Below are positions 5,264-38,706 of a stretch of 64,000 nt of DNA, piece by piece; positions within the stretch are counted from its first letter, which is position 1; each line of letters begins with the position of its first letter. This stretch comes from Hymenobacter edaphi (GTDB taxonomy: Bacteria > Bacteroidota > Bacteroidia > Cytophagales > Hymenobacteraceae). The position numbers were made by a program, and so were the translations under genes. The stretch is from contig NZ_QHKM01000003.1 in the NCBI RefSeq assembly GCF_003258365.1, forward strand, positions 124,001-188,000, read 5' to 3'. Below the pieces are notes generated by a model that ran no database searches, was not told where the DNA came from, and saw nothing but the letters and a program-made list of their open reading frames with translations.

Positions 5264-5270
5264 CGGTTAG

Positions 5271-5314
5271 CGGCTGTATCGGCAGGAGGCCGAGGACGGC
5301 TGCCGATACAGCCG
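5271..5314 (-). terminator. Second perfect hairpin, next to the tRNA-like gene
   Basis: Arms of 15 bases (CGGCTGTATCGGCAG and its complement) enclose 14 bases. On the minus strand it starts six bases past the 3' end of the tRNA-like gene. It may be the terminator or a 3' processing signal of that RNA. Confidence 0.5.
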
Positions 5315-5319
5315 CGGCG

Positions 5320-5433
5320 CTGTAGAAGAAGGACTCGAACCTCCACGGAGTAGTTAGCCAGAGTCCCCCCGGTTTTTCCCAAACCTCCACCCTCGAGACA
5401 GGAGGGCATGTCTGCCAGTTTCATCATTCTACA
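5320..5433 (-). tRNA. Unusual tRNA-like gene, 114 nt, Leu-like D arm, GTC in the anticodon position
   Basis: Read on the minus strand: a perfect 7-bp acceptor stem (TGTAGAA/TTCTACA), a D arm with AAACTGGCAGACATG like tRNA-Leu, a 5-bp anticodon stem CCCTC/GAGGG closing the loop CTGTCTC, a 45-base region where the variable arm should be, and a normal T arm (GGAGG, TTCGAGT, CCTTC). Discriminator G; no CCA encoded. The central trinucleotide would be GTC (Asp), odd for a class II tRNA, and position 37 is T where a purine is expected. The 45-base insert is about twice the usual class II variable arm and contains GGTTT/AAACC; its GGACTC could also pair with GAGTCC of the T arm. It may be a tRNA pseudogene, a tRNA with non-standard use, or a tRNA-mimicking small RNA. 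Confidence 0.55.
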
Positions 5434-5606: not shown

Positions 5607-6638
5607 TTACAGGCGTTGGGAGGAGGCGCGCACCAGCAACTCGGGCGTCAGCACCACCGGCGGCAGCGGTGCGCTGCCGGGCGCTTCCAGCAGGCGTAGC
5701 AGTTGCTGCACGGCGGTAAGGCCCATCAGGTGGCAGCGCTGGTCCACCGAGCTGATGGTGGGCTCGGTAAGGGCGGTGAAGGCCTCGTTGCTGAAACCAA
5801 CCACGGCCACGTCGGCTGGAATGCGCCGGCCGTGGGCCTTGAGCACCTGCATGGCGCCTACGGCCGCCAGGTCATTAGAAGAAAACACCGCGTCGGGCGG
5901 CTCCGCCAGCTGCAGCAACTGCCGCATGCCCAGGGTGCCGGTTTCCTGGTTGAGGTCGGCAACGAACACCAGCTCCTCCGGTGCGGACAGGCCGTGGTCG
6001 CGCAGCGCGTCGAGGTAGCCCTGGTGGCGGTTGCGGTGGATATTCAGGTGCAGTGGCCCCGAAAAGTGCGCGATGCGGCGGTAGCCCTGCCCGGCCAGGT
6101 GTGCCACCGCTGCGTAGGCGCCGGCGTGGTCGTCGAGCACCACGGCGCTGGTGTAGGGCCCGGCCATGTCCTCCACGATGCGGTCGAAGAACACCAGCGG
6201 CGTGCCGGCGCGGCGCACGGCGTCGAAGTGGCTGAAATCCTGAGTGGTACTGGCCAGCGACACCAGGATGCCCTCAACCTGGGCATTCATCAGCAGCTCG
6301 ATGTTGCGCTGCTCCTGCCGCACGTCCTCGTTCGACTGGCAGATCATCACGTTGTGGCCCGTGCGGCTGGCCTCGATGGCAATGCCGTTGACAACTTCGG
6401 GGAAGAAATGCCCAGTGATGTAGGGTACCAGCACCCCAATGGTGTTGCTGCGCCCGCGGCGCAGGGCGGCGGCCAGCTGGTTGGGCTGAAAGTGCAGCTG
6501 CTCGGCCAGCTCACGCACCCGCTGTTTGGTAGCCTCGCTCACCTGCGGGTGCCCCGTCAGGGCCCGCGACACGGTGGAAGGCGAGAGGTTCAGGGCCCGG
6601 GCCAGGTCGGTGATGGAAGTCCGGTGGGGTGCCTTCAT
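5607..6638 (-). CDS. LacI-family transcriptional regulator
   Basis: A 343-residue regulator of the LacI/GalR family. The start at 6638 gives MKAPHRTSITDLARAL, which leads straight into the helix-turn-helix (TDLARALNLSPSTVSRALTG, residues 8-27) and hinge helix (QPNQLAAALRRGRSNTIGVLVP). An upstream GTG-type extension to 6797 adds 53 residues that do not fit. Residues about 60-335 form the periplasmic-binding-protein-like sugar sensor (GVLVPYITGHFFPEVVNGI; VVLDDHAGAYAAVAHL; DAVFSSNDLAAVGAMQ; VGFSNEAF). Such proteins repress sugar-use genes until an effector binds. No sugar operon is adjacent in this window, so the target is not known. Confidence 0.93.
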   Translation of the reverse strand: MKAPHRTSITDLARALNLSPSTVSRALTGHPQVSEATKQRVRELAEQLHFQPNQLAAALRRGRSNTIGVLVPYITGHFFPEVVNGIAIEASRTGHNVMICQSNEDVRQEQRNIELLMNAQVEGILVSLASTTQDFSHFDAVRRAGTPLVFFDRIVEDMAGPYTSAVVLDDHAGAYAAVAHLAGQGYRRIAHFSGPLHLNIHRNRHQGYLDALRDHGLSAPEELVFVADLNQETGTLGMRQLLQLAEPPDAVFSSNDLAAVGAMQVLKAHGRRIPADVAVVGFSNEAFTALTEPTISSVDQRCHLMGLTAVQQLLRLLEAPGSAPLPPVVLTPELLVRASSQRL

Positions 6639-7492
6639 GCGAATAAGAAACCCCGTTGACGCTGTGGAAGCACGGGTGGGACGGGCGGAAAAGATGGGGA
6701 GCAGCAAACAGGGCGCAGGCCGTGCGCAGGCAGTAAACATAAGCACGATCTGACATTGTTGCCACGTCCGGTCAGGCAGCTCCGCCAGCCCCGGCATCGG
6801 CAGTGTTCGGGTTCAAGCCAGCGGCTCGGGGTAGTGGCGGGGCGTGGTCAGCCCATGAACGCCGCCCGCCAGCGCGCTGCTCGGACCAGCGAAGGAGGTC
6901 GGCGTAAACTGCGTCGGTGTGCCTGCGCCGCCTGGCGGTGCCGACGCCCGTGTTGCGCCTGCTTACGGGCGGGCCGGTACCGCACTATGAAGACTGAACG
7001 GTATTCCAAACCGTGTTCAGGTACTGAATATCCTTGTTGAACGCCTGGTTTCAAGCTGCAGAGAAAACCCCGCCGAACCCGGTCTGCTTTCATCTAAAGC
7101 GGGCTTTCCGGTGACGTAGATCAGCCAAGAGACATTGGGCATTCGGGCGAAACGGACTGTTGCGCAATAATCCTGGCCCGACGGAAAAAACGTGCCGCTG
7201 CCTGGCGCAGACCGGAGTGTTCAGGACAGTAGTGGCGCCGCAGAGTCCGGACCGAACGATGTTGGTTCAGATAGTGGCGCCGCTTGGCAGGCGTGCTCCC
7301 TCGCCTGATTTCGCAGAAGAGGGCTTTTGAGCAAGGCAATGAATCACACGGCAAAGGACTATATATGCCGCAATGGTCTTGGTAGGCTGAGAATTACGTT
7401 TACCGGCCTCTACCGACGGCAAGCGGCTGCGTGCCAATGATGCAGTTCACTCAATCTTTAGGCTGTGTAAACTACGGTTTCAATCAAAAACA
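6639..7492. other. Long intergenic stretch without a recognised gene
   Basis: About 850 bases with several short open frames on both strands, none recognisable. Codon composition is unlike the neighbours, and local GC is lower towards 7340-7490. The segment TAGTGGCGCCGC occurs twice (about 7228 and 7273), each near a GTTCAG-containing stretch, as a short direct repeat. It may be decayed coding DNA next to a tRNA gene, but no transposase or integrase remnant can be named. Confidence 0.5.
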
Positions 7493-19614: not shown

Positions 19615-19739
19615 GCGGCCGCGGGGGCTACGTACCGGGCTGAGGCAGAATCAGGGAAGCCGGGCCCGCCGCCTGACGACGACGCAGCCCAATAATGATT
19701 CATTCTCCGCCCGTCCTCCGCAGGCGCCGAACACTAAGA

Positions 19740-19928
19740 TGCGCACGGGCAGGTCTCCTGACTTGCTTCGCGCCGGGCGGCCTTCCCATTCCTCCGCCGG
19801 TCGGGTCGACCGGCATCAGCGGAACAGTGGCGAGGTGGGCCCGGCGCATGATGGAAGCTTACAGTTGCGGGGACAGCTGCCGAATTTCACGGCATTCCCT
19901 TTTCAGCCGCGCCCCCCGATTGGGGTCT
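19740..19928 (-). promoter_or_regulatory. Cobalamin riboswitch
   Basis: Read on the minus strand the sequence carries the diagnostic blocks of the B12 riboswitch: AAAAGGGAATGCCGTGAAATTC, then the core CAGCTGTCCCCGCAACTGTAAGC (B12 box part), GCCACTG, GGGAAGG, and GTCAGGAGACCTGCC. It precedes the BtuB-like receptor by about 125 bases. Cobalamin binding should reduce expression of the receptor and propeller genes. Ends are approximate. Confidence 0.93.
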
Positions 19929-19954
19929 GGCCACCCATGCGTGGGGCAAAGATA

Positions 19955-36565: not shown

Positions 36566-36648
36566 GGGGGGATTCCAGAGCGGCCAAATGGGACGGACTG
36601 TAAATCCGTTGTCTTACGACTTCGAAGGTTCGAATCCTTCTCCCCCCA
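36566..36648 (+). tRNA. tRNA-Tyr (anticodon GTA)
   Basis: An 83-nt class II cloverleaf: acceptor GGGGGGA/TCCCCCC, anticodon loop with GTA (GACTGTAAATC), long variable arm, T loop TTCGAAT, discriminator A. No CCA encoded. Confidence 0.97.
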
Positions 36649-36680
36649 CTTCATTTCTTCTTGCTAAATCAGCTCATCAC

Positions 36681-36753
36681 GCGGGAGTAGCTCAGTTGGT
36701 AGAGCGGCAGCCTTCCAAGCTGCAGGTCGCGGGTTCGAACCTCGTCTCCCGCT
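36681..36753 (+). tRNA. tRNA-Gly (anticodon TCC)
   Basis: 73 nt: acceptor GCGGGAG/CTCCCGC, D arm AGCTCAGTTGGTAGAGC, anticodon stem GCAGC/GCTGC around CTTCCAA (anticodon TCC), T loop TTCGAAC. Nearly the same 5' half as tRNA-Gly(CCC) at 7536. Confidence 0.97.
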
Positions 36754-36791
36754 CTCTTTCCGCCGACCGAGTCTGATAAGTCAAGTTTCAA

Positions 36792-36863
<72 letters not shown>

Positions 36864-37026
36864 CAAGAGTGAACCTAACGGGGCAGCGCGCCTGCCGCCG
36901 TCTGGCCTGCAGCAAGCGACGTGCAGTTTTTTCCTAGGGAGAAGTCTGCGTATCGCTTTCTTGCAGTATACCCGCAGCGCGTAAGCACCCTCTTTTCCCT
37001 CAAAATTTCTTCCCAATCTCTTTACA

Positions 37027-38214
37027 ATGGCTAAAGAAACTTTTGACCGGTCCAAGCCGCACGTAAACATCGGCACGATCGGTCACGTGGACCACGGCAA
37101 AACGACTCTGACCGCCGCCATCACCACGGTGCTGGCTAACAAAGGTCTGGCCGCCAAGCGTGACTTCTCCTCGATCGACAACGCTCCGGAGGAAAAAGAG
37201 CGCGGTATCACTATCAACACCGCTCACGTCGAGTACTCCACCGCCAACCGTCACTACGCTCACGTTGACTGCCCGGGTCACGCTGACTACGTGAAGAACA
37301 TGGTAACCGGTGCTGCTCAGATGGACGGCGCTATCCTCGTGGTAGCTGCTACCGACGGCCCGATGCCCCAGACCCGTGAGCACATCCTGCTGGCTCGCCA
37401 GGTAGGTGTGCCGCAGCTGGTGGTGTTCATGAACAAAGTCGACATGGTCGACGACCCCGAGCTGCTCGAACTCGTTGAGATGGAAATCCGCGAGCTGCTG
37501 TCGTTCTACGACTTCGACGGTGACAACATCCCGGTTATCCAAGGTTCGGCCCTCGGTGGTCTGAACGGTGATGCCAAGTGGGTTGGTACCATCGAGGCCC
37601 TGATGGATGCTGTTGACTCCTTCATTCCGATTCCTCCCCGTCTGACGGACCAGCCGTTCCTGATGCCGGTAGAAGACGTCTTCTCGATTACCGGCCGTGG
37701 CACCGTAGCTACCGGTCGTATCGAGCGTGGCGTAATCAACTCGGGTGAGCCGGTTGAAATCCTCGGTATGGGTGCTGAAAACCTCAAGTCGACCGTAACC
37801 GGCGTTGAGATGTTCCGCAAAATCCTGGACCGTGGCGAAGCTGGTGACAACGTAGGTCTGCTGCTCCGTGGTATTGAAAAAGAAGCCATCCGTCGCGGCA
37901 TGGTTATCTGCAAACCCGGCTCGGTAACCCCCCACAAACGTTTCAAGGCCGAAGTTTACGTTCTGTCGAAGGAAGAAGGTGGCCGTCACACGCCGTTCTT
38001 CAACAACTACCGTCCGCAGTTCTACTTCCGCACCACCGACGTTACCGGTATCATCTCGCTGGCTGAAGGCGTGGAGATGGTAATGCCCGGCGACAACGTG
38101 ACCATCACCGTTGAGCTGATCAACGCAGTGGCCATGGAGAAAGGCCTGCGCTTCGCAATTCGCGAAGGTGGCCGTACGGTAGGTGCCGGTCAGGTAACCG
38201 AAATCCTCGACTAA
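37027..38214 (+). CDS. tuf: Elongation factor Tu
   Basis: EF-Tu, 395 residues, GTP-dependent carrier of aminoacyl-tRNA to the ribosome. All GTPase motifs are present: [13 protein letters not shown], the switch region ([16 protein letters not shown]), [12 protein letters not shown] and NKVDMVDD. Domains 2-3 follow ([45 protein letters not shown]). The start gives [21 protein letters not shown]. Placed behind the tRNA trio, as usual. It is likely the only tuf copy in the window. Codon use is strongly biased, as for highly expressed genes. Confidence 0.99.
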
Positions 38215-38239
38215 TTACGACGAAAGTTGTATTAGGCGC

Positions 38240-38280
38240 GCAGCCTCTATCGGGAAACCGGTAGAGGCTGCTGTGTTTTC
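38240..38280 (+). terminator. Terminator of tuf
   Basis: A 14-bp stem GCAGCCTCTATCGG/CCGGTAGAGGCTGC closed by GAAA (one G-T pair), followed by TGTGTTTTC, 25 bases after the stop. Confidence 0.85.
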
Positions 38281-38494
38281 GGCCTTGCCGTGACTAACCT
38301 GGGTTGACCCGATGCAACGCCGATAGGCAGGCTTCCTAAAAAGCCAGGAGCATTTATAGTAGGAAGACGAATTTGTGCATCTATAAGGACCAGATGGACC
38401 CTGCTATTAGCCAAAACATAGAAGCCGGCACGGTAAATCAAGCGTAATTGTCGGTCTGTCAAGAGAATCTGTTCGCGTTTTTTTTGCAGCCAAA

Positions 38495-38525
38495 TTTGTT
38501 TTATCCATAACCTTCGGTACATTTG
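38495..38525 (+). promoter_or_regulatory. Promoter of tRNA-Trp-secE-nusG-rplKAJL operon
   Basis: TTTG (38495-38498), 19 bases, TACATTTG (38518-38525), exact Bacteroidota boxes. tRNA-Trp begins 40 bases later. Confidence 0.75.
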
Positions 38526-38565
38526 CACTCCGAATTGAAGCATACCCGCCTCAATAGGAACTTAC

Positions 38566-38636
38566 ACGGGCGTAGTTCAAGGGTAGAATAGAGGTCTCCA
38601 AAACCTTTGATGGGAGTTCGAATCTCTCCGCCCGTG
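38566..38636 (+). tRNA. tRNA-Trp (anticodon CCA)
   Basis: 71 nt: acceptor ACGGGCG/CGCCCGT, anticodon loop CTCCAAA with CCA, T loop TTCGAAT, discriminator G. It is cotranscribed with secE, the order seen in many bacteria. Confidence 0.97.
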
Positions 38637-38706
38637 CAGATTAAACCTAAAGACGGCCGCTGCTGAAGCGGCCGCTTTTGCCTTACCGCCAACCGGTCCT
38701 TCAACC

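Follow-up and report, generated by a model that had tools for sequence, protein, structure and literature searches.

A conserved family of tRNA-like RNAs in the Bacteroidota has an anticodon loop that reads as that of tRNA-Asp with one base changed, commonly lies divergent from a gene for an AsnC-like regulator, and in some relatives trades places there with asparagine synthetase A. On balance, we favour the reading that this RNA is a dedicated, non-decoding tRNA that serves as a platform for tRNA-dependent asparagine synthesis.

The RNA and its fold

The copy described here lies in the window, a 64,000-nt stretch of the Hymenobacter edaphi genome that was analysed as a whole. Its parts are:

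5320..5433, minus strand: the whole tRNA-like RNA, 114 nt, with T1 at 5433 and G73 at 5320
5427..5433, minus strand: acceptor 5' strand TGTAGAA; U1 pairs with A72 (5321)
5408..5424, minus strand: D arm of the tRNA-Leu type, with a 3-bp stem and GG in the loop, assigned by covariation and comparison with tRNA-Leu
5390..5406, minus strand: anticodon arm CCCTC-CTGTCTC-GAGGG, a 5-bp stem and 7-nt loop, assigned by covariation
5397..5399, minus strand: GTC in the anticodon position (34-36), followed by U37 (5396) and C38 (5395)
5347..5389, minus strand: variable domain with stem GGAG/CTCC and inner stem CCGG/CTGG, assigned by covariation; it also holds conserved unpaired strands, GGGAWAAA and CTAAC
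5328..5344, minus strand: T arm GGAGG-TTCGAGT-CCTTC, assigned by covariation
5321..5327, minus strand: acceptor 3' strand TTCTACA; the discriminator is G73 (5320), and C74 is encoded (5319)
5270..5315, minus strand: hairpin of 15-16 bp just 3' of the RNA

An earlier note, made from the sequence of this DNA, had placed the RNA exactly. The four arms that it described are all present: the acceptor stem has 7 perfect pairs (TGTAGAA/TTCTACA), the anticodon stem has five (CCCTC/GAGGG), the D arm is of the Leu type and the T arm is normal. The variable region, of about 45 nt, lies between the anticodon and T stems, and the anticodon triplet GTC is, as the note said, followed by T (loop CTGTCTC; T37). 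The family, the AsnC link, and the tRNA-Asp loop with its changed position 37 go beyond that note.

The overall layout is that of a canonical elongator tRNA: a 7/5 acceptor-T arrangement, D and T arms, and a 3' end ready for CCA. The encoded C74, found also in all five tRNAs of the window, suggests that CCA is added to the RNA. The 15-bp hairpin that the note saw at once downstream is real (5271-5285 with 5300-5314) and is possibly a terminator or a processing stop; the sister genome G002 has no such hairpin. Elsewhere in the window are a cobalamin riboswitch (19731-19953, minus strand, 99.1 bits) and a tRNA cluster, Tyr-Gly-Thr with Trp 1.7 kb further on (36566-38637, plus strand).

The minimum-energy fold of the window RNA (−39.1 kcal/mol, versus −23.9 for the cloverleaf) includes the GGACTC:GAGTCC pairing proposed earlier. 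That pairing exists, yet the sister genome, with GAATCC, does not conserve it, and the alternative fold was rejected. Nor does the RNA stand out in fold energy from its shuffles (z −1.46; 17 of 200 equally stable). Energy alone thus does not favour the cloverleaf, and relatives are needed to decide the fold.

Conservation and spread of the family

Between the window genome and G002, 113 of the 114 RNA positions are identical. Identity is 65% over the 150 nt upstream, 45% over the next 20 nt downstream and 71% over the following 100 nt, and about 80-94% in stretches 150-700 nt from the RNA on either side. Judged from this alignment, the window copy is under selection.

Compensatory changes, which the note had proposed looking for in relatives, are abundant in the cloverleaf stems. 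In an alignment of 43 copies, 99.1% of 1158 cells are paired in the cloverleaf and variable-arm stem, and 75 cells show double changes (21.1 in shuffles); RNAalifold, unprompted, recovered the acceptor, anticodon, V and T stems and missed the D stem. A larger alignment, which had been fitted to the structure, comprises 84 copies, 82 of them distinct, taken from 65 loci; here 97.4% of 2207 cells are paired, and both sides change in 21 of 27 pairs, with 277 cells of this kind where shuffles give 72.5. The large insert sits within the variable arm and has covarying stems of its own, which disposes of an ordinary tRNA-Leu with a processed intron, an alternative the note had raised.

By blastn, the family is seen in three of eight genomes of the genus, and at E<=0.1 matches occur in 109 of 200 genomes of the window's family, some of them fragments. 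A covariance-model search of the class, whose filters may lose weak copies, found a copy of at least 72 bits in 69 of 395 genomes: 15 of the 16 in the window's order and 54 of the 379 outside it, across 16 families. Scores fall into two groups, copies of the RNA from about 72 bits upward and a lower group of about 85 nt at no more than about 64 bits; both members examined from the latter are tRNA-Leu. Among the matches listed are at least 80 named loci, all Bacteroidota by title, including Chitinophaga, Niabella, Saprospiraceae, Cyclobacteriaceae, Algoriphagus, Dyadobacter, Pontibacter and Hymenobacter. A mobile element was considered and rejected, the window copy having no blastn match in plasmid or phage collections.

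Rfam 15 does not contain the family: the window RNA has no match at the gathering score or at E<=5, and 15 relative loci have none at the gathering score. ARAGORN does not call the window RNA a tRNA, nor the long copies among sampled relatives. Among the titles and abstract openings listed from the open-licence PMC literature, none describes the RNA.

Copies range from 109 to 176 nt, with one exception of 77 nt (L131:1501-1577, in G011). This member shares the acceptor ends of the family, has the loop CTATCTC and almost lacks a variable arm; it scores 69.7 and 73.2 bits with the first and second covariance models, and alone among the sampled relatives it is called by ARAGORN, as tRNA-Asp(atc). 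The variable domain is thus dispensable there. Several g5 genomes, near 1e-14 with R1, may hold similar short forms.

Some loci carry tandem arrays: four copies within about 780 nt in L105 (G380:C9), and three each in L116 and L142. The short spacers suggest tRNA-style processing. Low-scoring, apparently decayed copies also occur in relatives (L034, L070-L072). The one at L034:3442-3552 (G006; 19 bits), seemingly a decayed copy of the window RNA, again lies after a homologue of the gene at 5607-6797, which, judged by eye, would encode a LacI-type regulator. Within 100 nt upstream, 50 of the 84 copies have a TAnnTTTG box (5.5 expected from simple shuffles), which we take to be the Bacteroidota promoter motif.

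Invariant positions and decoding

The first pair is U1-A72 and the discriminator G73 in all 84 copies. Of the 83 seven-base anticodon loops, all have U35 and C36, 82 have C38 and 79 have U37. Position 34 is looser (G in 65, C in 10, A in seven, U in one), and its drift extends to genomes without AsnA (G020, G310). Position 33 is U in 64 copies and another base in 19.

The determinants of aspartate identity, as given in the part of PMC9976931 drawn on here, are G73, G34, U35, C36 and C38; the window copy has all five. By sequence comparison, the loop differs from that of tRNA-Asp in having U rather than A at position 37: a Dyadobacter tRNA-Asp has CTGTCAC where the RNA has CTGTCTC. That tRNA-Asp begins with a G-C pair. 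Bacterial tRNA-Asp keeps G1-C72, which is said to help position the 3' end in AspRS, and the RNA departs from tRNA-Asp in having U1-A72 throughout. By the published rules, U1-A72 confers amidation of Asp-tRNA, and G1-C72 and U20a block it; the cited part of PMC4206432 names U1-A72 as the pair read by GatCAB.

The RNA is no tRNA-Asn, which would require the anticodon GUU (C36 is found in 83 of 83 loops), and no tRNA-Leu, which would require A73 and a Leu anticodon (G73 is found in 84 of 84 copies, with NUC in the anticodon position). It lacks the 12-bp acceptor domain of the allo-tRNAs (8/4 or 9/3), its own layout being 7+5.

An elongator tRNA is also expected to have U33 and a purine at 37, a combination that the family does not show. 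Among 19 distinct called tRNAs, U33 is present in all and purine 37 in 18, the exception being the 77-nt family member. With position 33 other than U in 19 of 83 loops, these sequence features make it unlikely that the RNA decodes codons.

An AsnC-like regulator and an exchange with asparagine synthetase

In 42 of 65 loci a gene for an AsnC/Lrp-type regulator lies 101-266 nt from the RNA, and in all 42 it is divergent. The other 23 have no asnC within the fetched flank; two of these have little flank. Across 20 neighbourhoods (16 kb, one of 11.5 kb), all chosen for known presence of the regulator, it is the sole protein found in every one, the next most shared occurring in five. The regulator matches the NCBIfam AsnC model at 1.6e-45 and 154.7 bits, below the cut-off of 227, and its best PDB match is the AsnC entry 2cg4. 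An Lrp with a leucine link was rejected, since both the profile and the PDB searches favoured AsnC.

The RNA swaps with asparagine synthetase A beside asnC in some relatives. In G009, G012 and G014 an archaeal-type asparagine synthetase A (AS-AR) adjoins asnC; the G009 protein falls just below the family cut-off, and the RNA copies of that genome lie elsewhere. The same asparagine synthetase A gene is beside asnC in G029, and a different gene occupies the slot in G017. In the 80-genome panel described below, all three AS-AR genes adjoin asnC.

The window genome carries asnC about 388 kb from the window RNA, on the same contig. Beside asnC lies a copy that retains acceptor and T arm and has lost the D and anticodon arms, and the same holds for three genus-mates; in these copies (L280:1238-1351 in G000, L279, L281 and L282) the two arms are replaced by sequence that differs in each species. 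They score 17.7 bits in the window genome, 23.8 in G001, 11.2 in G007 and 10.9 in G003, the last two being called from position and from reading the sequence.

In Hymenobacteraceae the RNA on the asnC side is followed 3' by a pair of hairpins with the loop ATCTGGGTGGGT, the second ending in a T run. Such hairpins occur at 42 loci (some the same place twice), for example L006:1664-1675 and 1698-1709, and L279-L282; two per locus were matched, and three in L072. The window contains none.

GatCAB, asparagine synthetases and AspRS

Gene content was compared in a hand-picked panel of 40 genomes with the RNA (RNA+) and 40 without it (RNA−). GatB is encoded in all 40 RNA+ genomes and in 28 of the 40 RNA− genomes (Fisher p 1.9e-4, with shared descent ignored). 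Thus the RNA combines U1-A72 with the presence of GatCAB, as judged by GatB, as expected of a GatCAB substrate. GatB and the RNA have been lost together in G524, compared with G693 of the same genus, and in G584, compared with its f56 sisters G544, G617, G732 and G800.

Known asparagine synthetases fail to separate RNA+ from RNA− genomes. E. coli-type AsnB is found in none of the 40 RNA+ and eight of the 40 RNA− genomes, AsnA in three (G000, G119, G023) and none, and AS-AR in one and two. Any of the three occurs in four RNA+ and nine RNA− genomes, a difference that is not significant (p 0.22), so absence of a synthetase does not predict the RNA. The window genome itself has AsnA. Presence of AsnB was rejected as a test: the broad model TIGR01536 matches 74 of the 80 genomes, 72 over its cut-off. 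Four synthetase models found no match in RNA+ genomes G310, G511 and G800, nor in RNA− genomes G543, G571 and G584.

Class II synthetases were sought with PF00152 in 38 genomes, 30 of them RNA+, and named by score group and size. All 30 RNA+ genomes have one AspRS-sized and one AsnRS-sized gene, and 29 a LysRS-sized gene (in G551, a piece of 140 codons was matched instead); a further, weak match of 332 codons occurs in G020. In the 21 RNA+ genomes with readable AspRS, the position of the His of non-discriminating (ND) enzymes of known structure holds K, L or Q, and the ND Gly is missing; we presume that this His and Gly matter. Both are likewise missing in all eight readable RNA− genomes, so the trait is not specific to RNA+ genomes.

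The consulted portion of PMC4206432 places Bacteroidetes among genera that have AsnRS, GlnRS and GatCAB and no Asn synthetase, and in which Asn is possibly made on tRNA-Asn. In the Bacteroidetes surveyed in PMC3927822, as far as the part used here states, GlnRS is present except in F. taffensis, and among those with GlnRS only S. ruber has gatCAB.

A model for the RNA

An RNA that unites aspartate and GatCAB determinants, and whose gene stands where an asparagine synthetase gene can stand, is a candidate platform for asparagine synthesis. AspRS would charge the RNA with Asp through its tRNA-Asp-type loop (G34, U35, C36 and C38) and G73. GatCAB would then amidate the bound Asp to Asn, reading U1-A72, a pair missing from true tRNA-Asp. 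Three features would bar Asn-RNA from the ribosome, where its use would place Asn at Asp codons: the base U37, the relaxation at position 33, and a variable domain that is large and structured. Because U37 and a loose position 33 would spoil decoding and leave the charging and amidation determinants untouched, the platform is presumably a non-decoding one. Asn would be released, and AsnRS would load it on ordinary tRNA-Asn. The divergent AsnC-like regulator would tie the RNA level to asparagine supply, in most of the loci sampled. The window genome has AsnA, and its asnC adjoins an arm-less copy; there the RNA of the window may be a second version that is still selected.

The main weak points of this model are that nucleotide 34 is other than G in 18 of 83 loops, that the asnC-side copies of the genus are arm-less, that AsnB-like proteins are widespread (74 of 80 genomes), and that GatB occurs in 28 of 40 RNA− genomes. 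Also counting against it are the missing G1-C72 with its help in placing the 3' end in AspRS, the 23 of 65 loci with no asnC in the flank, and the below-cut-off score of the regulator.

Alternatives

The RNA could instead be a sensor or regulator that, when charged or when bound by AspRS, AsnRS or GatCAB, reports Asp or Asn status and controls AsnC or other genes, with no bulk route to Asn. The conserved divergent pairing with the AsnC-like regulator would suit this, as would the unpaired strands conserved within the variable domain (GGGAUAAA and CUAAC), which could bind a partner, the conserved ATCTGGGTGGGT-loop hairpin pair on the asnC side in Hymenobacteraceae, and the genus copies that retain the acceptor and T arm only. 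Yet tandem arrays of up to four copies resemble the dosage of a carrier, 23 of 65 loci have no asnC in the fetched flank, and charging and amidation determinants are retained jointly; we regard this reading as doubtful. It is close to the regulatory mimic offered in the earlier note, an option that keeps some standing, although an aminoacyl carrier is the better fit. Another carrier role, in which Asp or Asn is taken outside translation to a peptidoglycan bridge, a lipid or a peptide, would call for the same charging features, and a tRNA-Gly serving the pentaglycine bridge of the cell wall has been described (PMC8007984, in the part cited). However, no protein other than the AsnC-like regulator, present in 20 of 20 neighbourhoods, is found in more than five, and this role appears improbable.

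Decoding of Asp (or Glu) codons by a rare tRNA is less probable still. The cloverleaf has intact D and T arms and ARAGORN names the 77-nt relative a tRNA-Asp, but positions 33 and 37 depart from those of called tRNAs, changes at nucleotide 34 would alter the codon read, and a Dyadobacter has a normal tRNA-Asp alongside the RNA. A decayed tRNA-Leu gene, finally, is hardly credible. The Leu-type D arm and base of the V arm, and the seemingly decayed copies in relatives, would be in keeping with one. Near-identity of the RNA amid immediate flanks of 45-71% identity refutes it for the window copy, and so does the covariation in 21 of 27 pairs; the spread across the class also counts against it. 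With the pseudogene discarded, the non-canonical tRNA is the one of the note's three options that gains support.

Relation to known systems

The closest parallel to the proposed platform is the indirect pathway on tRNA-Asn (ND-AspRS plus GatCAB; Deinococcus, Thermus, Bdellovibrio), which, according to the cited part of PMC4206432, makes the same conversion of Asp to Asn on a U1-A72 RNA and supplies Asn where synthetases are missing. Unlike tRNA-Asn, the RNA has a GUC-type rather than a GUU anticodon, U37, a class II body and a large variable domain; its own gene is often beside asnC, and the AspRS here is without ND-type residues.

The RNA resembles tRNA-Leu in its D arm, its class II layout and the base of its V stem (TGGAG...CTCCGTG, identical in L133 of the order), and differs in G73 rather than A73, U1-A72 rather than G1-C72, the Asp-type loop and the large variable insert. 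With tRNA-Asp(GUC), represented by the one from Dyadobacter, it shares the loop save position 37, along with G73 and C38, whereas tRNA-Asp has G1-C72 and no long variable arm. Allo-tRNAs and selC* tRNA-Cys also have long variable arms and unexpected anticodons, GUC being common among the 8/4 allo-tRNAs; in the portion of PMC7609411 used here, these have 8/4 or 9/3 layouts, Ser (some Ala) or Cys identity, and other phyla as hosts. In contrast, the RNA is 7/5 with Asp-type determinants.

For the genetic arrangement, the parallel is E. coli, in which AsnC is encoded with a divergent asnA. Here too an AsnC-like regulator is divergent from a putative asparagine-supply gene, but the partner in 42 of 65 loci is a gene for an RNA.

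Implications

More tentatively, and with rather less than even confidence, we propose that a free-standing gene for an off-ribosome tRNA, under the control of an AsnC-like regulator, itself serves as asparagine synthase in many Bacteroidota: AspRS and GatCAB would make free Asn on its product, and the gene would replace, or be replaced by, asparagine synthetase A. In the papers cited, tRNA-dependent Asn synthesis takes place on tRNA-Asn, within translation. If the proposal is true, an RNA would occupy the place of a metabolic enzyme; the retention of GatCAB in Bacteroidota that have one AspRS and an AsnRS would find an explanation; and automatic calls of asparagine auxotrophy would be corrected.
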